A program made the translations under genes and the position numbers. From an uncultured Clostridia bacterium (GTDB lineage Bacteria > Bacillota > Clostridia > Christensenellales > Borkfalkiaceae): a stretch of 64,000 nt of DNA. The stretch's first letter is position 1. The number at the start of each line of letters is the position of its first letter. Below the pieces are notes generated by a model, which was not told the origin of the DNA, made no database searches, and saw only the letters and a list, made by a program, of their open reading frames with translations. Where the stretch lies: contig CANRGG010000005.1 in the NCBI GenBank assembly GCA_947630115.1, positions 1 through 64,000 on the forward strand, read 5' to 3'. This document shows positions 25,339-37,291 of the stretch, in pieces.

Positions 25339-25392
25339 ATTGGAAAAGTGAAAATCGGGGAAGTTTATCGCCCCGATCAGGATACGGGTGTT

Positions 25393-28377
25393 ATGAAAAA
25401 AAAGTGGTTGGGAAAATTGATTCTGGCTTTCTTGATGAGCTTGATCGCAGCATCGGTCGCGCTCATCGGGGTTTTCTATTTCGTGTTTATTTCCGACCAG
25501 ATCCATAAAGACAGCAGCGACCATCTCTGGGAGATCTACGATCAGGTCAGCAGGTCCCTCGATATGTTCATCGACCGGAACTGGGGACTCCTCGGCAGCT
25601 GGGACGACACCCTCGTCAATATGCAAGAGGAACAGATCCCCGATTTCTTCAAGGAACAGCAGGAACATTGGAGCATTTCGCAGTTCTATTTCCTCTCTGT
25701 CGACAAGACCTGCATGGACTCGGACGGAAATTCCTGCACCCTGACGCTCGAGGACGAATGGCACGAAGTCTTTGAGGACAAACACTCCATCATGGTCGGC
25801 GACAAGAGCCCCTTGGAACAGAACCAGAAGATCACGGTGTTTGCCGCCCCGTCCCGGCATGGGACTTATCGCGGCTTCGAATACGACGCGATCGCGGTCT
25901 CCTATCTCAACTCCGTCATCACCGAGATCCTCGACGTCGATTCCTTCGCGGGAAAGGCGAGATCCTTCGTCATCCACAGCGACGGGCGGGTGCTTCTGTC
26001 CACCCAGACGGGCAGCGGCGGTTTTGCAAACTATCTCACCTATCTGCAGGGGCAGAACCTCGATGATACGAACCTTCAAAAGATCCGTTCCGATCTCGTC
26101 GGCAAAACGCCCGGGCTCATCCAGTGCGATCTCGGACGGGAGACCCCGGTCAGCTACTATCTCCTCTACCAGCCGGTGGATCTTGCGGATCAGGACTACT
26201 CGATCTTGAGCGCCGTGCCGCAGAGTGCGGTCAGCGCAGGCTTTTTGTCCATCCAGAGCACCACGATCAACGTGCTCATCCTCATCTTCTTCCTGATCGG
26301 CGCCGCGGTCATCTTTTTGGTCATTCTCCGCAGCCGGAACCAATCGCGCAAGAACAAGATGGAACTGCAATACCGCGAGCTCATGTTCGACGTTCTGTCG
26401 AACACGGTCGATGATATCTTCATCATGATCGACCCCGAGACGCAGCGGGTGGACTATCTGAGCCCCAACGTCGAGCGGCTCCTCGGGATCCCGGGCAGCG
26501 CGGTCAGAGAGGATATCCGCACCATGGCGAAATGCGCGGTCGATTTCAACATCATCGTGCCGAAAACGGAACTCGACGAGATCCCCTTGGGCGGCAACAA
26601 GAGCTGGGAATGCGAGTACATGCACCAATCCACCGGCGAGCGCCGCTGGTATCGCGTGACGATCTATCGCATGGTCATTCAGGACGTCGCCAAAAACATC
26701 ATCGTCATGTCCGACCGCACCCTCGACAAGCAGCTCAACCAGAAATTGCAGGAGGCGCTCGACGCCGCCAAGAGCGCGAACGAGGCGAAGAGCAATTTCC
26801 TCTCCAATATGTCTCATGACATCCGCACCCCCATGAACGCGATCGTGGGATTTTCGGTGCTCCTCGAAAAGGACGCCGATCAAGTCGAAAAGGTGCGTGA
26901 ATACACCCGCAAGATCATGGCGTCCAGCCACCATCTTCTGAGCCTCATCAACGACGTGCTCGACATGAGCAAGATCGAGAGCGGAAAGACCTCCCTTAAC
27001 GTCGAAAAATTCAGCCTGCCCGAGCTTTTGGACGAACTCAACATCATTTTGCTCCCGCAAGCGAAGGCGAAAAATCAAGAATTCGTCATCCGCGTGGACG
27101 GCGCGCCGCCCGAAGAGATCCTCGGCGACAAGCTCCGTCTCAACCAGATCCTCATCAACCTGCTCTCCAACGCGATCAAATACACCCAGTTGGGCGGCAA
27201 CATCAATTTCCTCATCGAAAAGCTCTCGCAGGATGAGAACCGCTATGTCAAGCTTCGCTTCACGGTGAAGGACAACGGGATCGGCATGAGCGAGGAATTC
27301 CAAAAGCACATCTTTGCCCCGTTCAGCCGTGAAATCAACTCGGTCACCAACAAGATCCAGGGCACCGGGCTCGGCATGGCGATTACGAAAAACCTCGTGG
27401 ACCTCATGGGCGGCGTCATCGGCGTCGAAAGCGCGCCCGGCAAGGGCAGCACCTTCACCCTCGAGATGTCCTTCGCCCTCCCCACGGAGGAGGAAAAGGA
27501 CGATTGGTTCCGCCAAAAAGTCACGCGGATGCTCGTCTGCGACGACGAAGAGCAGATCTGCCTGAATATCTGCGAGATGATGCACGACACGGGCGTGGAC
27601 GTCTCCTATGTGACGGAGGGCGAAAAGGCGGTCTCGTCCGCCGTGCGCGCCCATGAGCATGGGGAAGATTTCCATGTCATCCTGCTCGATTGGAAAATGC
27701 CCGGCATGGACGGCGTGGAGACGGCGCGCAGGATCCGCGCAAAAGTCGGCGCAGCGGTGCCCATTCTCGTCCTCACCTCCTACGACTGGTCGGAGATCGA
27801 GGATGAGGCGAAAAAAGCCGGGATCAACGCCTTCTTGCCCAAGCCCTTCTTCACCTCCACCTTCTGGCAGACGATCAAGCCGCTGTTTACGGCGGAGACC
27901 CCGCTCCAATACAGAGCCGCGCCGGAAGAGACCGAAAAAGAGCGCGTCATGGAGGGAAAGACCTTCCTCGTCGCCGAGGACAACGAGCTCAACGCCGAGA
28001 TCTTGACTTCCATGCTCGATCTCGAGGGCGCCAAGTGCGACGTCGTGGTCAACGGCAAAGAGGCGGTGGAGCAGCTCCTTCAGGCCGATCCCGAAAAATA
28101 CGACATGATCCTGATGGACGTGCAAATGCCCGTGATGAACGGCTACGAGGCGACCGAGGCGATCCGCGCGAGCGATCATCCCCGCGCAAAGACCATCCCG
28201 ATCGTCGCGATGACGGCAAACACCTTTGCGGAGGATGTGCAAAACGCCCTCAACGCCGGAATGGACGGACATCTCGCAAAGCCGATCGACATGAACGCCG
28301 TGCGCGAAACGGTCGGCAAACTTCTGAAAAAGGAAATCCGGCAGTCCCACCCGGAAAAGAAAGGAGAAACTTCATGA
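25393..28377 (+). CDS. Hybrid sensor histidine kinase with two receiver domains
   Basis: Membrane sensor of about 994 residues. Order: membrane helix (8-33), extracellular sensor (to about 290, Cache-like length), second helix (295-318), PAS (330-430), HisKA with SHDIRTPMNAI, HATPase with LINLLSNAIKY (N box), DNGIGM and GTGLGMAI (G boxes), then two receiver domains: VCDDEEQ...LLDWKMPGMDG...LTSYD...LPKPF, and VAEDNELN...LMDVQMPVMNG...MTANT...AKPID. Both receivers keep the phospho-Asp and the Lys. ATG 25393 is preferred over GTG 25348. No HPt or DNA-binding output domain is present. The stop overlaps the start of the solute-binding lipoprotein (ATGA), so the two are translated together. Confidence 0.93.
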   Translation: MKKKWLGKLILAFLMSLIAASVALIGVFYFVFISDQIHKDSSDHLWEIYDQVSRSLDMFIDRNWGLLGSWDDTLVNMQEEQIPDFFKEQQEHWSISQFYFLSVDKTCMDSDGNSCTLTLEDEWHEVFEDKHSIMVGDKSPLEQNQKITVFAAPSRHGTYRGFEYDAIAVSYLNSVITEILDVDSFAGKARSFVIHSDGRVLLSTQTGSGGFANYLTYLQGQNLDDTNLQKIRSDLVGKTPGLIQCDLGRETPVSYYLLYQPVDLADQDYSILSAVPQSAVSAGFLSIQSTTINVLILIFFLIGAAVIFLVILRSRNQSRKNKMELQYRELMFDVLSNTVDDIFIMIDPETQRVDYLSPNVERLLGIPGSAVREDIRTMAKCAVDFNIIVPKTELDEIPLGGNKSWECEYMHQSTGERRWYRVTIYRMVIQDVAKNIIVMSDRTLDKQLNQKLQEALDAAKSANEAKSNFLSNMSHDIRTPMNAIVGFSVLLEKDADQVEKVREYTRKIMASSHHLLSLINDVLDMSKIESGKTSLNVEKFSLPELLDELNIILLPQAKAKNQEFVIRVDGAPPEEILGDKLRLNQILINLLSNAIKYTQLGGNINFLIEKLSQDENRYVKLRFTVKDNGIGMSEEFQKHIFAPFSREINSVTNKIQGTGLGMAITKNLVDLMGGVIGVESAPGKGSTFTLEMSFALPTEEEKDDWFRQKVTRMLVCDDEEQICLNICEMMHDTGVDVSYVTEGEKAVSSAVRAHEHGEDFHVILLDWKMPGMDGVETARRIRAKVGAAVPILVLTSYDWSEIEDEAKKAGINAFLPKPFFTSTFWQTIKPLFTAETPLQYRAAPEETEKERVMEGKTFLVAEDNELNAEILTSMLDLEGAKCDVVVNGKEAVEQLLQADPEKYDMILMDVQMPVMNGYEATEAIRASDHPRAKTIPIVAMTANTFAEDVQNALNAGMDGHLAKPIDMNAVRETVGKLLKKEIRQSHPEKKGETS

Positions 28378-29651
28378 AAAGAAAGATCTTCCCCTTGCTT
28401 GCGGCGCTGTTTCTGACCGCCGCGATGACCGCCTGCGCCGATCCCGTAACGCCGCCGGTCGATCCCGACGCGCTCACCATCATGGGGAAAAAGAGCGATC
28501 TCAACAAGCCCTATATGACGCGGATCTTCGAAAAATATCAGGCGGATACGGGCAACAAGCTGCGTCTGATCGAATTCGAGGATTCGCAGTACGAAGTCGC
28601 TGCGGCGCAGCAATTTGCGGAGGGCAAAGCGCCCGACATTTTTCAGCATTTCCACAACGCCGATCTGAGCCGCTTTGATGTCGAGGAGAATTTCCTCTAT
28701 CTCGGCGAGGCGGAGTGGGCGGACGATCTCACCGACTCGGCGCGCGCCTATTGCACCGACAAAAACGGAAATCTGCTGGGCCTTCCCTTCTGGGAGAGCT
28801 CGGTCTCGGGCTGTTATTACAACAAGACCCTTTTGAACAGTTTAGGGCTCGAAGCGGTCGCCTCGCAGCAGGACTTCGACGGGCTGTGCGCCGCGATCAA
28901 GGAAAACGGCTACACCCCCATCTGCTGGCCCGGAAACGGCTGTTCCTGGATGCCGCAGTTCGGGCTCGACCCCATCTTTGCGGACGATCCCGAGCTCCTC
29001 GAAAAGCTCAACTCGAACGAGATCTCTTTGACTGAGATCCCCGCGGTCGAAAACATGGTACAATGGATCGCGGACGCGGAGCAAAAGGGCTGGTTCGGCA
29101 ACGACTATCTTTCGACCGGCTGGAATGAGATCAGCTCGGTCATGGGTTCGGGCGAGGCCGTCATGACCTTCATCTGGGACACCTGGTTCTACACCGACTT
29201 TTCGGCGGGACAGAAGTATTCGGTGGACGATTTCGCGCTCATGCCCGTCTTTCTGAACACCGTGGAGGGCGGCACCTACGAGGGCGGCAATCTCAACATG
29301 ATGATGGTCAACAAGAACGGCGAAAAACTCCAAAAGGCGCTGGATTTCCTCTCCTACTGCGCCACACCCGAGAATTATAACTACGCCTTCGACGGCATTT
29401 CGACGGTGAGCTGTTTCAAGGGACAGACGACGAACATCCAATCCAAAATGGTGACGGACGCGACGGCGGATCTCAAAAAGAAGGAGCGCGTCTCGACCGC
29501 GGCGACCAAGATCATCGGGTACAGCGCGGAGGACGTCTCCGAGGCGCTCATCGATCTTCTTTCCGGCAGGACGAACGTGAAGGGCTGCGTCAAGGAGATC
29601 GACGATTTCCGCAAATCCGAAGCGAAAAAATACGGCGCAAGCGGTTTTTAA
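28374..29651 (+). CDS. Extracellular solute-binding lipoprotein, family 1
   Basis: Lipoprotein of about 425 residues with signal peptide and lipobox (TAAMTAC, Cys near residue 21). The mature part has the sugar-binding protein pattern: KYQADTGNKLRLIEF, EGKAPDIFQHF, WESSVSGCYYNKTLLNSLGL, ENGYTPICWPGNG, AVMTFIWDTWF. The ORF track begins far upstream in the kinase; ATG 28374, preceded by AAAGGAG, is the start and overlaps the kinase stop. No ABC permease or ATPase is adjacent, so it probably presents a ligand to the kinase sensor domain rather than, or in addition to, feeding a transporter. A terminator follows. Confidence 0.92.
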   Translation: MKRKIFPLLAALFLTAAMTACADPVTPPVDPDALTIMGKKSDLNKPYMTRIFEKYQADTGNKLRLIEFEDSQYEVAAAQQFAEGKAPDIFQHFHNADLSRFDVEENFLYLGEAEWADDLTDSARAYCTDKNGNLLGLPFWESSVSGCYYNKTLLNSLGLEAVASQQDFDGLCAAIKENGYTPICWPGNGCSWMPQFGLDPIFADDPELLEKLNSNEISLTEIPAVENMVQWIADAEQKGWFGNDYLSTGWNEISSVMGSGEAVMTFIWDTWFYTDFSAGQKYSVDDFALMPVFLNTVEGGTYEGGNLNMMMVNKNGEKLQKALDFLSYCATPENYNYAFDGISTVSCFKGQTTNIQSKMVTDATADLKKKERVSTAATKIIGYSAEDVSEALIDLLSGRTNVKGCVKEIDDFRKSEAKKYGASGF

Positions 29652-29698
29652 GAAAATTTAATTCAAAAGTGCCAGAAAACTCAATTCAAAAAAAGCAA

Positions 29699-29731
29699 GG
29701 GGCGCGGTCCGCATGGACCGCGCCCCCTTTT
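29699..29731. terminator. Terminator between solute-binding gene and leftward surface operon
   Basis: Perfect 12-bp stem GGGGCGCGGTCC-GCAT-GGACCGCGCCCC, then CTTTT. Confidence 0.85.
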
Positions 29732-29743
29732 GACCTATTTCAT

Positions 29744-30631
29744 TCAATCGTTCGAAAATTCATAGACGATCGTCACATGGTACCCATCAATCGAATAGGA
29801 AACAGAGAGCTGTTTGATCCTCTCCGCTTCGACGGAGGCCTCGACCGTCATGTCCTCGGCTTTGAGCTCCGCCGCATTCAGAAATGCCGCGGCGTTTTTC
29901 ACCTTCGCCCGGAAACTCCCCTCTTCGAAAACCGGATCCGAGAAGTTCTCTTCGCGGAAGTCGAAGCCGCGCGGCGAAAGCGATTTGACAGGAAGATCGA
30001 TCTCCTCCCCTTCGCGCCCCGTGACGTTTCCGTCCGCGCCGAACGTGATCTTCCCGCGAAGGGTCTTTCGATCGCTTTCCGGCAGGACGATCTCCCCGTC
30101 CTTTTTCTCGAAGGTAGCGAGCCTCTCCAGCGTGAACTCGACGGTGTATCCGCCGTTTTCCCCTCTTTTGAGCTCGTAACGGTCGGTGAGCGTCTCGCCG
30201 TCCCGCTCCGTCGTCACGGTGACCACGGACTGGTCGCTTTCCTTTTTGGCGTATTCGGCAAGATCCTCATAGATCGTATTGGGCGCGACGACGACTTTAC
30301 ATTCCGCCCGCTTGTTCCCGTCCTCCGTCGTGACGGAGACCGTCGCGTTTCCCCCCGCAAGCCCCGTCACCGTGCCGTCGTCGGAGACCGAGGCGATCTT
30401 GTCGTCGGAAGAGCTCCATTTGACGGCCTTATTTTCGGCGTTTTCGGGCGCCACTTCGGCATGGAGCCGGAAGGATTCCCCGATCTTCAGATCGAGCGAC
30501 GTCTTGTCGAGCGTCACGCGCTCGACGGCAATCGGACCGACGGGATCGACGTTTAAGGGATCTTTACAGCCCGAAAGCGCAGGCAGCGCAAGGCAGCATA
30601 TCAGCAGTATCAAACCAAATAATTTTTTCAC
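29744..30631 (-). CDS. Lipoprotein with bacterial Ig-like (Big2) domain
   Basis: Secreted lipoprotein of 295 residues with signal peptide and lipobox LSGC. Residues about 35-115 form a Big2 domain (VERVTLDKTSLDLKIGES, AVKWSSSDDKIASVSDDGTVTGL). The remaining 180 residues are beta-rich and unrecognised. The start is GTG at 30631, eight bases after AAGGAG. It begins 12 bases after the stop of the giant surface protein and is therefore in the same operon, which suggests that it assists or anchors that protein at the cell surface. Confidence 0.82.
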   Translation of the reverse strand: MKKLFGLILLICCLALPALSGCKDPLNVDPVGPIAVERVTLDKTSLDLKIGESFRLHAEVAPENAENKAVKWSSSDDKIASVSDDGTVTGLAGGNATVSVTTEDGNKRAECKVVVAPNTIYEDLAEYAKKESDQSVVTVTTERDGETLTDRYELKRGENGGYTVEFTLERLATFEKKDGEIVLPESDRKTLRGKITFGADGNVTGREGEEIDLPVKSLSPRGFDFREENFSDPVFEEGSFRAKVKNAAAFLNAAELKAEDMTVEASVEAERIKQLSVSYSIDGYHVTIVYEFSND

Positions 30632-30643
30632 TTCTTTATCTCC

Positions 30644-33600
30644 TTACCAAAACCTTCTTTTGAGCACGGCTCCCGCCAATGCCGCGACCGCCGAAACGGC
30701 AACCGCCGCTGCCGCCGCAAACGGGCCAAACGCAGCCTCGGACACCCGCTCCTGCACTTCGTTCCGCTCCTTTGCGTCTCCGTTATATTCCTCCGTCAAG
30801 CCTTTCAGGATCGCAAACTCCTCCGCCCGCGCGCTCTTTTCCTCGCCGCTCAGCGCCTGATAGCGTTTCACGGTCTCAGAAATCGCCGCAAAGCGCTCCT
30901 CCCGGCTCTTGGCAAGCTCGCCGTCCACGACATAGTAGATCTCCCTTTCCGTCTTGTCTTGGTTCTCCGTCACGACGACGCCCGTGAACATGTCGTCCGC
31001 GCCGTCGCTCATGAGATAACTGCGCGTCTTGAAGGGAAGCCCGAGCGATTCGGCGGTCGTGTGCGCTTTGCTCCCTTCGAGCACGTTCAGCTCGAGCTTG
31101 AAATACCAGCGGAACGCGTCCCGCTCGAAGGGCTCCACGCCGTCGGGAAGTACCAACGTCCCGACTCGGATCCCGCGGAAGGCGTCGATTTTGATCGTCT
31201 TGACCGATTGCGGCAGCACGATGAGCTCGATGTTCGTATCTTTGCCGAGATCGCGCAGGCTGTCCTGCCCGATGACCTCGAGTTTGCTGCCCTTTTCAAA
31301 GGTGAGCGAGGTAACTTTGGGAATGTTCCGGAGTGCGACGTTGCCGATCTCGGTGATGTCCTTTCCGACGACGATCTCGGTGATGTCCGTCAAAACCCCC
31401 CAGGGCCGTCCGCTCTCCGAGGAGAAGCTGTACGTTTTGCCGCTCCCCGTCAGATAGAAGGTCTTTCCTTCGAGGATGAGGAAGTACGCCTCGTCCCCCG
31501 CAAGTCCCGCATCCGTCACCTTGCCGCCGGGAACAAACGCGCCCTTTTCAAAGACGCAGTCTTCAAGGAAGGTGTCGCCGCCGAGTTTCAGCGTCCCGTT
31601 GAGCCCAAGGCAGTTTTCGTCGAAATAATGCCAGACGCCGTCGATGTTGACCGCCCCCGTCAGGAACTTTCCGCCCTGCAGATAGCGGGCGCTCCCGCTC
31701 ACCGTGTCGTCCACGAGCCCCGAATAGAGTTTCAGATCGTCGATCTTGTAATAATTTCCGCAGACTTTGCAGAAGAAGTCTCCTGTCTCGCTGTTGTATT
31801 CGAATTGATGGTCCGCAAGCTGGCACTCGCGCGGGCCCGCTTCATAGAAATCGAACTGCGTCGCGGTTCCGTTCTCGTCCACGTCCCATGCGGTGATCTC
31901 GATATGCCTGGAATTGGCGCTGACCGAAAGATAGAGGGCATGGTAGTCCTGCGTCGCCTTTTCGAATTTGTCCGAAGAGACGCAGCTGTACTTCTTGTCT
32001 CCCGCCGTGCCCGCGATGAAGTAGACGACGCCGTCCTCGCTCTCGGCGCCCCCTTTGAGCACCTTGGTGCGGGCATAGCTGTGATCATGCCCCGAAAAGA
32101 CGAATTTCACGCCCGCTTCCTCGATCGCCTGTTCCAGCCCCGCGCGGCGGTAGATCTCGCTCTCCGACTGCTCGGGGTTGGTGTTGAAGATCGGCACATG
32201 GCAGGTGAGGATCTTCCAGGTCGCCCGGCTCTTTCCCGCGTCCTCTTTGAGCCATTCCGCGAAGTTTTTGAGCTCCTCCGCGTCGGTCGTGAACCCGAGG
32301 GAGGCGACATACACGTCGCCGATCTCATAGGACGTCCAGCCGGAGGGCCCCTCCGCGGTGCTGCCGTAGATCTTGCGCGCCGCAAACGCCGTGGGATCGT
32401 TCACCGTCTCATGGTTGCCGATCACATGGATCATCGGCGTCTTGGCATAGACGTTGTTGGACAAAACGTTGAGCAGCGCCGTCCATTCGTCATAGCTGCC
32501 GGGATTGTCCACCGAGTCGCCCGTCTGAATGCCGAAGAGATACCGGTGCCCCGCCTTTTCCATGCTCTCCGAGAACTTGGACGCCATCGCCGCGTCCTCT
32601 CCCTGCATATCGCCGACGACGAAGAACTCCGTCCGCTTGATGAGGCTATCCGTCGTCGTGAAAGAGGAAGGCTCCGACCAATTCTCTCCGTCGCCGACCC
32701 GGTAATAATATTCCGTCCCCGGTTTGAGCGAGGTGAGCGCAAGGTTGTTGACATAGTTCGCGTTCTTCTGCGTGTCGTAACTGACGATCGTGCTCGTCCC
32801 CGTATAGAGGACCGCGTCCTTCATATCCTCGCTCTCGGAAAGCTCGAGCTTGTTCGCCTTCGAAGCCTCGTTCAGATCTTTGATATAGGACATCCAGCTG
32901 ATATTTTTCTGTGTGGAGGGATCGCTCACCGCATTGAAGATCGCATAATAGGCGACGGGCGGATCCCCTTCTCCGTCATATTGCACCGCATTGTAGCTCG
33001 TGACCGCCGTATAGAACGAGCGCGCGCCGTATTCGTCAATGGCATACAGAGTATAGGTCCCCTGCTCCGCCGTCAAAAGAACGTTTTTCGCCTCGCCCTC
33101 TTCGCGGATGAGCTTGCCGTCCTTGTCGGTCTTGCCGAGCTTTATCTCCTTGCTCTCCGCGTTTTCCTCGCCGTCCGCTTCCTGAACGTAATAGACGTCG
33201 ATTTCGTCGGCGGGATCGTTCTCGGTGTCGAAGATATAGATCTCCCCGTCCCCCATGTTGACGATCATATCCTGCGCGCGGAGATGGTAAAATTCCCGGA
33301 TCGGGGAATAGATCGTCCGCATGCGGAAGGTATTGACAGTCTCGATCTCTTCCGTCCCCTGTTCGGCGTCCGTTTCGAAACTGCCGCTCGCCTGGAAAGA
33401 GAGCAGGCTGCCCGCAAAGACGTTGACGGGGATCTTCAGTTTGAGAGTCGCCACCAAGCCGTTGTCCAGCCCGCCGTCAATTGCAAAGCTCCAGACGCCG
33501 TCCTTTTCGCTCTTTTTCGTGACATGGTCGGCGCAGATCGTTTCGATCTCGTATTTCCCGTTGAGGGAAAGGGTGAGATCCGCCTGTTTAACGGCGCCGA

Positions 33601-36517
33601 AGGCATAGAGTTTGAACCTGAAATAGTTGCCAATCCCGGCGAAATCGTCGTATTCAAGGCGCAGACGAGGGCCGTCCCCGCCGCCACTTACCGAGAAATA
33701 GACGGTTTCGTCCGAGACGTTTCCGAAATTATCCTTGGCGTAAAAACGCACGCTGTGCTCGCCGTCGGGAAGAGAGACGGTGTAGCAGTAGTCGCCGTCC
33801 GTTTGGAACGCCTTCTCCCGGAAGAGCTTTCCGTCGATATAATAGTAGCACGCCTCCGACATGCCCGAGTTATAGGGGCTGACCGCGGTGTCGTCGGCCG
33901 CGGAAGTGCGGAAGGTGACCGTATTCGAGGGGATCGTCATGCCGTCCTCCAACGGCTGCGGATCGGATCCGCCCGTGAGGGAATAGCGAATGCCGCCCGT
34001 CACCGGCGCCACGACGTCCTGCGTGTTCGTGCCATAGACAAACTGCACATTGTCGATGAGCACCCAGCCCTTGCAATCCTTTGTGGGGATCGGGGTGCCG
34101 TGCCGGTCGTAGAGGCCGTTCTGATAGGTTCCCGTCGCATACATCAGGCGGACAAGCTCGCCGGGCAGGATTTTGATCGCGCGGCCCGCAAACCCGGAAA
34201 GATCGGCTTCGACATACTTCCAGCCCTCCCAGTTGATCCCGCCGAAGTCGGTCTTGTCCTTCGCCTGCGCCGCATTGCAAGCGTCCGTGAAGTTCACATA
34301 TTGGTAGGTGTAATCCTCACTGCCCACGTTCTGGACGCCGATCGCCGCGCGGAGCCAAAGGTTGACCGTCCCCTCCGGCGCATAGAGCCAAAGCCCGATC
34401 GCCGTGGGCGAGCCCGTCAAGACCTGCGGACGGGAAAAGCCAATACAAGCTCCCTCGATCTTATTTTCGCTCTGCGAAAAGTCATAATTGAGTTTGATCG
34501 CCTTCTTGCCGAAACGGACGATCTCTGCCCATTCTTGCTTGTCGGTCGAGACGACTTCCGCGCTCTCCTGTCCGCCGCGATCTGCCCCGTTCGTTTCGAC
34601 ATAGTGCGCCGTGACAAGATCGACGGTATCCGCGCTTTCTCCTTCGCTTTCATTGTCCCATTTGATGATCTTGCCGCCTTCAAGGCTGACTCTGCCGAAC
34701 TTTGCGTAGTCGATGGCATGGAAACTCGTGTTGTTCTTGTCTGCGACTTCCGCCTCGCCCTCGTCGCCGCCGTTGATGACAAGGCTCGGCTGCATGCCGA
34801 TCTTCACATAAATGGATTTCGAAACTTTCTCCTGTTTGTTCTCTTCCCCCTGATAGGTCGCCGTCACGGTTGCGTTCGAGGAGATCTTCCAATTCTCCGT
34901 GACCGTGAATTTCAATCCCTCGAATGTTCCCGTGGCATATCGATTTTTATCTTTTTGCCATTCATTATACTCTTCTGTATAATGTTCATACACTTTTTCA
35001 TATTCCGCATAAGACTTATCTTCCGCTTCCGTATAGGTTTCTCCGTGTCCGAAGTATTGCTCTTTTGTCTTTTTCTCTTCATGCGGATACAGGGTGCCAA
35101 CGCCGCTGACGCGCAGCTCTTCGAATTTTTCTTCCCATTGAATATCGCCCGGCTTCAAATGGACGATCTTTTGGTTATAAAAGGCGGTGAGACCGAAATC
35201 AGTCTCCTGCTTGTAGTCCAGATTCACCGACTCGGACGGGAAGGAAAGGGTATCTGGATGATAAAAACCGAGCGTCGTTTCGCCCTTGGATTGCCCGCCT
35301 ACGACGTATTCGACCGTCAAGTCGCCGACAAAATTTTCGGGCGCCGTAAAGGTCGCCTTTGCGGTGTTTCCGCTCAAAGAACTGTCCGTAAATGTCCCTT
35401 TTTCGGCGCCGTTCGCGTCCTTGACCTTCCATTCGCCTTGGGGAATTTGATCGACCGCAAAGCCGTATGCGTCGGAGGCGAGCGCCGAAAGCTCCACCGC
35501 GGAGCCGGGCGTATAGTATTCATTCTGCGGCGTGATCGAGGCATGGTCGAACTGACCGCTCGGCTGTGCCGTCGTCGTGATGAGAAGCGCCGAAGAAATC
35601 GTCCGCTCGAAGCCGTCCGACGGGATATTGCGCATGACCGCCTCGTTTTCGCCCTCGCGATGGGTGGAGAAGGTCGTGGAGCCGCCGCCGTCGAAGTTCA
35701 GAACGTCCTTGCAGCCCAAATGGAGCATGGTATAGGCGACTTCTCTGGTCGTCAGGCCGGAAGAGCGGGGCGCCTGTCTGCCGTCCACGCAGAGAATGAC
35801 GACGGAACCGTCCTCTTTGATCCCGATCGCCGTTCTCGGAACGAGCGAAGCGTCAGTGTCAGCGCCGCTTGTCAGTTTCCCGTCCATCGCAAGCGTGAAA
35901 AATCCGCCCGACGCGTCCTCGATCGTAATATTCGGATTCTTTGTCTTTTCTCTCTGTTTTTGTTCCGCTTGTTCGATTGTCGTGCCCGCCTCGAAAATGC
36001 CGACGCTGCCATCGCTGAACGAGGCGAAATAGGCGCGGTCCTTGTTCTCATGGAACTTTTTGCCGCGGATCACCAGCATGCCCGTCGGCTCGCCCGTCGT
36101 CATATTGAAAATATCGGAGTTGACGCCCGCGATGACCCGCTCGTCGGGATATTTCGTCTGATATTCCTTCATCTGATCGGAAAGCGCCTTGAACGTCCAG
36201 GTATTCGTTTTGGTTTCGTCCAGATTTCCGTAACTTGCGCGGAATTTGACGTTCTTTCTGTCCGCTTTGATGTCCATGACATAGCCGAGCGTCTGGGTGC
36301 CGGATTCGGTGTTCATGACAAGATTGCGCTCCACAACATCGGGCGAAACGCGGAAGGAAGTGTCCGACGTGATCGTATAATCGGTATCCTTGATCTTGGC
36401 AAGATCCGCATAGGCAGGCCGGAGCGGCAAGAACAGCGCGGCGCCCGCAAGCGCACAGCAAAGCGTCGCCGCAAGGCAGGTCCCTACGATTTTTTTCTTG
36501 TTCATTTTCCCTTTCAA
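30644..36517 (-). CDS. Giant surface protein: phosphodiester glycosidase plus purple acid phosphatase-like domains
   Basis: Predicted secreted protein of 1957 residues. Start TTG 36517 has AGGAG seven bases ahead; ATG at 36505 is an alternative. Order: signal peptide; NAGPA-type phosphodiester glycosidase domain (about 60-320; GVNSDIFN, VPRTAIGI, LHLGCKDVLNFDGGGSTTF); Ig-like domains; a carbohydrate-binding-like beta region (600-820); FN3-like domain (about 1210-1310); metallophosphoesterase with GDMQ, QTGDSVDN, IGNHETV, CHVPIF and GHDHSYAR; one cell-wall-binding-type repeat (GVWHYFDENCLGLNG); leucine-rich BspA-like repeats (1680-1790); C-terminal helix and basic end. It may release sugars from phosphodiesters and then phosphate from the product; that pathway is inference. 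Confidence 0.85.
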   Translation of the reverse strand: MKGKMNKKKIVGTCLAATLCCALAGAALFLPLRPAYADLAKIKDTDYTITSDTSFRVSPDVVERNLVMNTESGTQTLGYVMDIKADRKNVKFRASYGNLDETKTNTWTFKALSDQMKEYQTKYPDERVIAGVNSDIFNMTTGEPTGMLVIRGKKFHENKDRAYFASFSDGSVGIFEAGTTIEQAEQKQREKTKNPNITIEDASGGFFTLAMDGKLTSGADTDASLVPRTAIGIKEDGSVVILCVDGRQAPRSSGLTTREVAYTMLHLGCKDVLNFDGGGSTTFSTHREGENEAVMRNIPSDGFERTISSALLITTTAQPSGQFDHASITPQNEYYTPGSAVELSALASDAYGFAVDQIPQGEWKVKDANGAEKGTFTDSSLSGNTAKATFTAPENFVGDLTVEYVVGGQSKGETTLGFYHPDTLSFPSESVNLDYKQETDFGLTAFYNQKIVHLKPGDIQWEEKFEELRVSGVGTLYPHEEKKTKEQYFGHGETYTEAEDKSYAEYEKVYEHYTEEYNEWQKDKNRYATGTFEGLKFTVTENWKISSNATVTATYQGEENKQEKVSKSIYVKIGMQPSLVINGGDEGEAEVADKNNTSFHAIDYAKFGRVSLEGGKIIKWDNESEGESADTVDLVTAHYVETNGADRGGQESAEVVSTDKQEWAEIVRFGKKAIKLNYDFSQSENKIEGACIGFSRPQVLTGSPTAIGLWLYAPEGTVNLWLRAAIGVQNVGSEDYTYQYVNFTDACNAAQAKDKTDFGGINWEGWKYVEADLSGFAGRAIKILPGELVRLMYATGTYQNGLYDRHGTPIPTKDCKGWVLIDNVQFVYGTNTQDVVAPVTGGIRYSLTGGSDPQPLEDGMTIPSNTVTFRTSAADDTAVSPYNSGMSEACYYYIDGKLFREKAFQTDGDYCYTVSLPDGEHSVRFYAKDNFGNVSDETVYFSVSGGGDGPRLRLEYDDFAGIGNYFRFKLYAFGAVKQADLTLSLNGKYEIETICADHVTKKSEKDGVWSFAIDGGLDNGLVATLKLKIPVNVFAGSLLSFQASGSFETDAEQGTEEIETVNTFRMRTIYSPIREFYHLRAQDMIVNMGDGEIYIFDTENDPADEIDVYYVQEADGEENAESKEIKLGKTDKDGKLIREEGEAKNVLLTAEQGTYTLYAIDEYGARSFYTAVTSYNAVQYDGEGDPPVAYYAIFNAVSDPSTQKNISWMSYIKDLNEASKANKLELSESEDMKDAVLYTGTSTIVSYDTQKNANYVNNLALTSLKPGTEYYYRVGDGENWSEPSSFTTTDSLIKRTEFFVVGDMQGEDAAMASKFSESMEKAGHRYLFGIQTGDSVDNPGSYDEWTALLNVLSNNVYAKTPMIHVIGNHETVNDPTAFAARKIYGSTAEGPSGWTSYEIGDVYVASLGFTTDAEELKNFAEWLKEDAGKSRATWKILTCHVPIFNTNPEQSESEIYRRAGLEQAIEEAGVKFVFSGHDHSYARTKVLKGGAESEDGVVYFIAGTAGDKKYSCVSSDKFEKATQDYHALYLSVSANSRHIEITAWDVDENGTATQFDFYEAGPRECQLADHQFEYNSETGDFFCKVCGNYYKIDDLKLYSGLVDDTVSGSARYLQGGKFLTGAVNIDGVWHYFDENCLGLNGTLKLGGDTFLEDCVFEKGAFVPGGKVTDAGLAGDEAYFLILEGKTFYLTGSGKTYSFSSESGRPWGVLTDITEIVVGKDITEIGNVALRNIPKVTSLTFEKGSKLEVIGQDSLRDLGKDTNIELIVLPQSVKTIKIDAFRGIRVGTLVLPDGVEPFERDAFRWYFKLELNVLEGSKAHTTAESLGLPFKTRSYLMSDGADDMFTGVVVTENQDKTEREIYYVVDGELAKSREERFAAISETVKRYQALSGEEKSARAEEFAILKGLTEEYNGDAKERNEVQERVSEAAFGPFAAAAAVAVSAVAALAGAVLKRRFW

Positions 36518-36575
36518 AGTAAATCTCCTCTTTTTTCTCGAATTTTCCTATAGCTTATGCAATGAGTTTTGTTTC

Positions 36576-36604
36576 ATTATATGGATTTGGAAAAAAGCTG
36601 TCAA
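36576..36604 (-). promoter_or_regulatory. Promoter of the giant surface-protein operon
   Basis: Minus strand TTGACA (36604-36599), 17-base spacer, TATAAT (36581-36576), both perfect. Confidence 0.85.
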
Positions 36605-36642: not shown

Positions 36643-36673
36643 AAAAAAAGCCGACGGATTTTGTCCCCGTCGG
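36643..36673 (-). terminator. Terminator of the Cys-motif lipoprotein gene
   Basis: Minus strand CCGACGG / CCGTCGG stem (36673-36651), then CTTTTTTT. Confidence 0.8.
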
Positions 36674-36721: not shown

Positions 36722-37291
36722 TCAGTCTCCGCCGAGCCTGTGGATGATCTCGACGTCGGTGACCGCATTGCAGCCCGGGCGCAGACAGTGACGCGAACGC
36801 TGACCGTCCTGCGTCTTGGTCGGGTGCTTGTCGATCGTGAAGGCAGTGTCGAACAGATGTCCGAGCGCGCCGATGATCCGAGCTTCCGTCTCCTCGCAGC
36901 GGGTGCACTTGTGAACCATCAACCCGCTCATCTCGCAGGTCGCCTCTTGGATCTCCCATTCTCCCCAATCGTGCCCTCTTGCGGGGATCTCGCCCGTCTG
37001 TTGCAGCCCGCACATCGTGCATCTTCTCTTCCAGAGTCCGTCCTCGTTGCAGGTAACTTCCGTGACGACCTCCCACACGGTGAAGCTATGCGGGACGATG
37101 GGCATGACGATCGTGCGGACGTCGCCGCATTCGAGGCAGACGAGCCGCACCTCTCCCTCGCTGTAACAGGTCGCTTCCCGGATGACCTCCTGCCCATAGA
37201 CGTGAACGTGATCGCTGTCGCATGCGCAAAGACCGAGCGCCGTTGCGGCAACCATGACTGCGGCAAAAAGCAAAGCAGCGAATTTTTTCAC
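36722..37291 (-). CDS. Small lipoprotein with repeated CxxC/His motifs
   Basis: Unrecognised secreted protein of 189 residues. GTG start at 37291 after GGGGGAG. The signal peptide ends in LGLCACDSD, so a lipobox cysteine is likely. The mature part contains three to four repeats of about 35 residues of the type EATC...G...C..CG, followed by H (VCLECGDV, RRCTMCGL, HKCTRCEE, HCLRPGCNA). Such repeats are found in extracellular proteins of gut Clostridia, often next to other surface proteins; paired cysteines suggest disulfide or metal-stabilised small modules. It has its own promoter and lies upstream of the giant surface-protein operon in the same direction. Confidence 0.75.
   Translation of the reverse strand: MKKFAALLFAAVMVAATALGLCACDSDHVHVYGQEVIREATCYSEGEVRLVCLECGDVRTIVMPIVPHSFTVWEVVTEVTCNEDGLWKRRCTMCGLQQTGEIPARGHDWGEWEIQEATCEMSGLMVHKCTRCEETEARIIGALGHLFDTAFTIDKHPTKTQDGQRSRHCLRPGCNAVTDVEIIHRLGGD

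Follow-up and report, generated by a model that had tools for sequence, protein, structure and literature searches.

What would a gut bacterium do with one surface protein that carries both a phosphodiester glycosidase and a phosphoesterase, and how would such a protein be held at the cell? The question is raised by a gene in a 64,000-nucleotide stretch of DNA (the window) from an uncultured Clostridia bacterium of the Borkfalkiaceae, whose genome (G000) measures 1.61 Mb and is 94% complete. The first-pass annotation described a 1957-residue protein joining the two domains, which Pfam and the codon score bear out, with the gene lying on the minus strand. That annotation overlooked a partner lipoprotein, the C-terminal module with which the lipoprotein is paired and an altered paralogue in the same genome, and these form a large part of the analysis that follows.

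A two-gene operon on the minus strand

The open reading frame exists but runs on the minus strand from 36517 to 30644, encoding 1957 aa from a TTG at 36517, a start favoured by GAGGAG 7 nt on its 5′ side. An in-frame ATG at 36505 gives 1953 aa and corresponds to the start sites of relatives; residues are numbered here from this ATG. The codon score of +629, compared with −593 for a 1864-aa antisense ORF, argues that the reading of the gene is not a product of chance. A strongly negative score marks the antisense frame itself (window 30959–36553, plus strand) as a by-product of codon bias, and it was discarded. The two-enzyme gene and a lipoprotein gene form an operon with clear ends:

36651..36673, minus strand: terminator-like hairpin closing the upstream transcript
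36576..36604, minus strand: sigma-A-type promoter, TTGACA-17-TATAAT, 12 of 12 consensus positions
30644..36517, minus strand: gene for the secreted two-enzyme surface protein, 1957 aa (TTG) or 1953 aa (ATG, 36505)
35579..36139, minus strand: NAGPA phosphodiester glycosidase domain with PRTAIG, VDGRQ, NFDGGGSTTF and PSDGFER intact
34010..34828, minus strand: beta-sandwich (jelly-roll-like) domain, weakly CBM/FlaA-like, with a putative role in carbohydrate binding
32654..32932, minus strand: FN3-like domain (Pur_ac_phosph_N, Pfam)
32075..32626, minus strand: calcineurin-like two-metal phosphoesterase domain with GDMQ, GDSVD, GNHE, CHVP and GHDH intact and Asp for the Tyr ligand of purple acid phosphatases
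31106..31387, minus strand: LRR_5 (BspA-type) repeat region (Pfam)
30647..30931, minus strand: C-terminal helical module, transmembrane segment and basic tail, common to unrelated surface proteins
29744..30631, minus strand: partner lipoprotein gene, 12 nt downstream of the two-enzyme gene, encoding a lipobox, a Big_2 domain and a C-terminal domain without a Pfam or NCBIfam model
29688..29727, minus strand: GC-rich hairpin and T run 3′ of the lipoprotein gene, read directly from the sequence, the likely end of the two-gene operon

Regulation by phosphate, which the first-pass annotation had raised, finds no footing here: in a simple scan, no Pho-box repeat (TT[ACT]A[CT]A) turned up ahead of any of three homologues (the window gene, its paralogue B and the related locus L037), and the window operon has a perfect sigma-A promoter instead.

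Two neighbouring features are recorded for completeness. Beyond the terminator, which sets it apart from the operon, window 36722–37291 (minus strand) encodes a 189-aa lipoprotein in which zinc-ribbon-like CxxC/His motifs recur. On the other side, window 25348–29651 (plus strand) holds a hybrid sensor kinase (histidine kinase and two receivers) and, immediately after it, an ABC-type solute-binding lipoprotein, next to which no transporter gene was noticed.

Active sites, relatives and an altered paralogue

The exported protein (N-terminal signal peptide; C-terminal hydrophobic segment and basic tail) matches four Pfam families above their cut-offs: NAGPA PF09992 (3e-30, 106 bits against 25), Pur_ac_phosph_N (1.3e-13, 51.7 bits against 30), Metallophos (4e-11, 44.1 bits against 21.5) and LRR_5 (1.1e-6, 29 bits against 27.7). 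Among the parts proposed for its end, the leucine-rich region and the membrane segment thus stand, and wall binding is at most suggested by a choline-binding repeat that scores under its Pfam cut-off (18 against 27). Of the binding modules proposed between the enzymes, the Ig-like domains and the beta-sandwich are present; the resemblance of the latter to CBM and FlaA is weak and a hint at best, as its AlphaFold model is poor (pLDDT 43.5) and its profile had no match among PDB sequences.

Both sets of catalytic motifs are intact, as first annotated, when set against relatives and solved structures. In the NAGPA domain these are N129, R224-T225, D241-G242, D272-GGGS, S296-D297-G298 and R301, and the window copy retains every invariant and nearly invariant position of 23 aligned NAGPA domains. 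A profile of the relatives finds NAGPA crystal structures at 5e-29 to 1e-25 (3ohg at 5e-29, 6pku at 7e-26), and in alignments to 3ohg and 6pku the window domain keeps RTAIG, DG, DGGGS.TF and SDG.ER. The same catalytic domain, with motifs N.F, RTAIG, DG and DGGGS, is found in the uncovering enzyme NAGPA (6pku, 6pkg) and in the bacterial DUF2233 protein 3ohg; mammalian NAGPA is a single-enzyme Golgi protein, whereas the window domain shares its chain with a phosphoesterase and is displayed on a bacterial surface.

In the phosphoesterase domain the intact motif residues are D1299, Q1301, D1330, N1364-H1365, H1436, H1473 and H1475. Aligned across 17 fused proteins, D1299, Q1301, D1330, D1333, N1364, H1365, H1436 and H1475 are kept in all, and H1473 in 14, being N in paralogue B and L037 and D in L068; every motif position is therefore kept in 14 of the 17, the window copy among them. 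A profile of the relatives reaches purple acid phosphatases at 4e-26, and both the FN3-like N-terminal domain and the metallophosphoesterase fold typical of that family lie above their Pfam cut-offs. Plant and fungal members (1kbp, 1xzw, 6gja) share this FN3-like plus two-metal arrangement and the Asp, Asp, Asn and His ligand positions. Unlike them, the window protein lacks the Tyr ligand of the ferric ion (GDxxY): it has GDSVD, with Asp1333 in that place and Asp likewise in 17 of 17 fused proteins, the register being set by alignment to 1xzw (GDLSY against GDvvD). The description 'purple acid phosphatase-like' therefore holds for the fold and N-terminal domain and fails in the strict sense; judged by its ligands, the domain is not a true purple acid phosphatase, and since Tyr is replaced by Asp the charge-transfer colour that names those enzymes would not be expected.

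The architecture, which the first-pass annotation had suggested surveying in gut bacteria, recurs. At least 17 proteins in Clostridia, forming two clades in a tree of the NAGPA and phosphoesterase domains, are built on this core of glycosidase, beta-sandwich, Ig-like, FN3-like and phosphoesterase domains, and in most of them neither active site is impaired. The fusion occurs in about ten of 398 same-family genomes, mostly of other genera, and in several further families of the class; among the same-genus genomes searched, G000 alone has it. C-terminal parts differ from protein to protein (LRR_5, Listeria-Bacteroides repeats, InlB-type repeats, collagen-like, CotH) around a constant core, which argues that NAGPA and the phosphoesterase form a stable unit. 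Three further loci show variations. A 2666-aa ORF (L068:6302-14302) combines an intact NAGPA domain with a phosphoesterase reading GDDH in place of GHDH, fn3 and a CotH kinase domain; at L110:6194-11342, NAGPA (445 aa) and phosphoesterase (1342 aa) stand in two overlapping frames, a split gene or a frameshift; and a 1492-aa NAGPA protein (L069:8717-13195) has dockerin-like and cell-wall-binding repeats and no phosphoesterase that we could find, so that, read by eye, some gut Clostridia may include NAGPA in displays of a cellulosome-like kind.

G000 also encodes a second copy, paralogue B (L003:13063-19164, contig C8), which is 41% identical to the window protein over the whole length and has no C-terminal transmembrane segment. 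A related-locus search of genome contigs returned one relative only, L037 (L037:9094-15009), a relative of B from a rabbit-gut uncultured Clostridia genome; in the tree, B and L037 are the proteins with which the window protein clusters. Both B and L037 are altered in the NAGPA domain (R243 to I/M, G273 to E, S296-D297 to A-G) and in the phosphoesterase (H1473 to N), giving DEGGS, ADGI/MQ, AGG in place of SDG, and GNDH. The joint alteration of the two sites is consistent with one common task for both domains; it is a single evolutionary event, so a 'shared fate' of the sites rests on one case, and L068, where GDDH in the phosphoesterase goes with an intact NAGPA domain, speaks against it.

The fusion of NAGPA to a phosphoesterase is already on record. 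A 2024 study of ShfP described a vast radiation of extracellular calcineurin-like phosphoesterases that may be fused to NAGPA (PMC11488536). ShfP (YvnB) of Bacillus subtilis resembles the window protein in its secreted calcineurin-like domain with FN3/Ig domains, and the paper names NAGPA as a fusion partner; the domains listed for ShfP itself include a lamin-tail domain and seven Ig domains but not NAGPA (PMC11488536). The window protein has the ShfP-type layout of signal peptide, calcineurin-like domain and FN3-like, Ig-like and LRR_5 regions; its own features relative to ShfP are NAGPA, the beta-sandwich, LRR_5, the C-terminal helical module and the partner lipoprotein. The literature searched yielded neither a functional study of a NAGPA–phosphoesterase fusion nor a catalytic assay for this bacterial subgroup of NAGPA. 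By its sequence, the two-enzyme protein is thus a well-formed example of an architecture already known, and the more novel part is the partner lipoprotein with the common tail.

A C-terminal module paired with a lipoprotein

The lipoprotein's C-terminal domain is covered by neither a Pfam nor an NCBIfam model, and literature searches on the lipoprotein or the helical module found nothing relevant; the family is undescribed. Genes B and L037 adjoin the same lipoprotein neighbour. In other proteins of the window clade within the family, a shorter lipoprotein begins 2–8 nt downstream and aligns with the window lipoprotein's C-terminal domain (hhalign probability 95.8, E 7e-9). In genome G522 the fused gene runs off the end of a contig, and its apparent missing tail lies together with a lipoprotein at the start of another contig.

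The lipoprotein family is present also in genomes without the fusion, where the preceding gene encodes an unrelated exported protein ending in the same helical module. This module comprises about 65 residues, is probably helical (pattern KFxAIxxALxTYxxLTxxEK...AYN) and is mostly followed by a transmembrane segment and a basic tail. Across 30 genomes, a family lipoprotein match lies directly downstream of 23 of 25 module genes, and the six genomes without a module match have no lipoprotein match either. All 12 fetched module genes that lay outside both training alignments have the lipoprotein directly downstream, including two missed at the genome-wide threshold. The module's clients comprise GH43, M4 peptidase, cohesin and endonuclease I proteins, MBG-repeat adhesins and the NAGPA–phosphoesterases. 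A transmembrane segment is present in the GH43, M4 and MBG clients and in the window protein; ten of ten endonuclease I clients (L158, L161, L163, L165, L166, L167, L147, L149, L152 and L153), all secreted with the helical tail, lack it and keep both the module and a cognate lipoprotein next to it. In several client proteins the module is preceded by 'CxxC..TETR..ALG' segments like those of the 189-aa lipoprotein upstream of the window operon.

Four other NAGPA–phosphoesterase proteins were checked (L035, L109, L112 and f38) and the lipoprotein family was not found downstream of them; the two whose tails were read, L109 and L112, end differently. Since unrelated module clients have the lipoprotein and NAGPA–phosphoesterases with another tail do not, the lipoprotein tracks the tail and not the enzyme. 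An idea that it partners phosphoglycan enzymes was dropped once members of the same family turned up after genes for GH43, M4 peptidase, endonuclease I and adhesins.

Across the aligned lipoproteins the lipobox Cys is the sole invariant residue, and few others come close to invariance, which argues against an enzyme. Dedicated surface-anchoring pairs are familiar from exosortase and sortase substrates with C-terminal signals, and the likeness lies in a common C-terminal region on unrelated exported proteins that is tied to a second protein. Here, unlike there, the partner is a small lipoprotein with one cognate copy per client, and the near absence of invariant residues besides the lipobox Cys argues against a peptidase or transpeptidase. 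One cognate copy per client also argues for direct binding, and we infer that the lipoprotein docks on the tail, by tethering or assisted folding. An inhibitor or self-protection factor for the client would equally be co-transcribed directly and matched one to one, and nucleases and proteases are among the clients; this reading is nevertheless distinctly improbable, given that the lipoprotein stands also behind MBG-repeat adhesins, in which no catalytic domain was found and no inhibitor is needed, and that it follows the helical tail and not the catalytic domain. Returning to docking, we tentatively propose, at somewhat less than even confidence, a general surface-display system of this gut Clostridia family, in which the module on exported hydrolases and adhesins is bound at the membrane by each client's own cognate lipoprotein. 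Clients without a transmembrane segment, such as endonuclease I, would then be held by the lipoprotein alone.

Substrate and role

NAGPA chemistry leaves a phosphomonoester, which makes a phosphatase suitable as the next enzyme, and a stepwise attack on a sugar-1-phosphate diester appears chemically coherent. The proposal, made in the first-pass annotation, that sugar and then phosphate are released remains reasonable, as both domains, with genuine motifs, are also found side by side in relatives; for the organism's own teichoic acid as the target there is no support. Neither TagB/F-type PF04464 nor LtaS-type PF00884 has a match in the genome, each with a matching Bacillus subtilis control, and these absences are not absolute in a genome 94% complete. 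A search of the genome for the Stealth phosphotransferase family had a control without any match. PhoD/GlpQ teichoic acid hydrolases offer a precedent for surface phosphoesterases on phosphodiester glycans; the window system differs in having no Pho box, no TagB/F or LtaS match in its genome and an extra glycosidase domain. Self teichoic acid thus seems an unlikely substrate, and the missing TagB/F and LtaS matches and Pho box favour a foreign phosphoglycan; among foreign substrates the sequence does not discriminate.

For the activities, their order and the docking we arrive at the following model. Exported via its signal peptide and made together with a dedicated lipoprotein, the protein would be held by its C-terminal transmembrane segment. 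The NAGPA domain would cut the glycosyl-1-phosphate bond, setting the sugar free, and the phosphomonoester left behind on the second residue would then lose its phosphate to the two-metal phosphoesterase domain; the latter domain could instead be a diesterase. The beta-sandwich and Ig-like domains between the enzymes would grip the glycan and fix the distance, and the lipoprotein, docked on the helical module as tether or folding partner, would take no share in the chemistry. The role would be foraging on a foreign phosphoglycan for sugar and phosphate, a nutritional function made likely by the other clients of the module–lipoprotein pair, most of which, where identified, are hydrolases of nutrient type (GH43, M4 protease, endonuclease I, cohesin). 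As a whole, this two-step surface foraging model stands evenly balanced in our judgement.

Other roles were weighed against it. The surface display would also fit remodelling of the cell's own envelope phosphoglycan or lipoglycan, with the lipoprotein presenting a lipid-anchored substrate: its model (pLDDT 72) bears a weak likeness to LolA, LolB and LprF (prob about 1.0, E 1e-4 to 1e-3), and for the related family the ShfP authors favour teichoic acid, eDNA or phospholipid head groups as substrates (PMC11488536). We consider this unlikely in view of the missing TagB/F and LtaS-type matches, the NAGPA–phosphoesterases that have another tail and no lipoprotein, and the lipoproteins behind modules on nucleases, proteases and GH43, which are not phosphoglycan-specific. 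Phosphate or nucleotide scavenging, with the phosphoesterase acting on nucleotides, eDNA products or phospholipid head groups and NAGPA on nucleotide sugars, would draw on the varied phosphoester substrates of the extracellular calcineurin-like family (PMC11488536), the hydrolysis of UDP-GlcNAc also by mammalian UCE (PMC12024695) and the same lipoprotein partner family beside secreted endonuclease I of relatives; it is quite unlikely, there being no Pho box, a beta-sandwich between the enzymes that indicates a glycan, and a 2000-residue surface protein that would make sense only with solid substrates. Predicted conflict proteins do combine NAGPA with TelC-type and peptidoglycan enzymes (PMC12419801), yet antagonism by breaking phosphodiester-linked wall glycans of rival bacteria is highly improbable for a protein with no toxin-like delivery part, whose fellow clients are nutrient-type hydrolases and whose lipoprotein family, pairing with unrelated enzymes and adhesins, supplies no enzyme-specific immunity-like gene.

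If the foraging model is right, a single protein at the cell surface would convert a phosphodiester-linked glycan to sugar and phosphate, which is not an activity so far assigned to uncultured Clostridia of the gut. The module and lipoprotein pair would offer a handle on how glycosidases, proteases, nucleases and phosphatases are held at the surface of these bacteria, and a genomic marker for the proteins so displayed.
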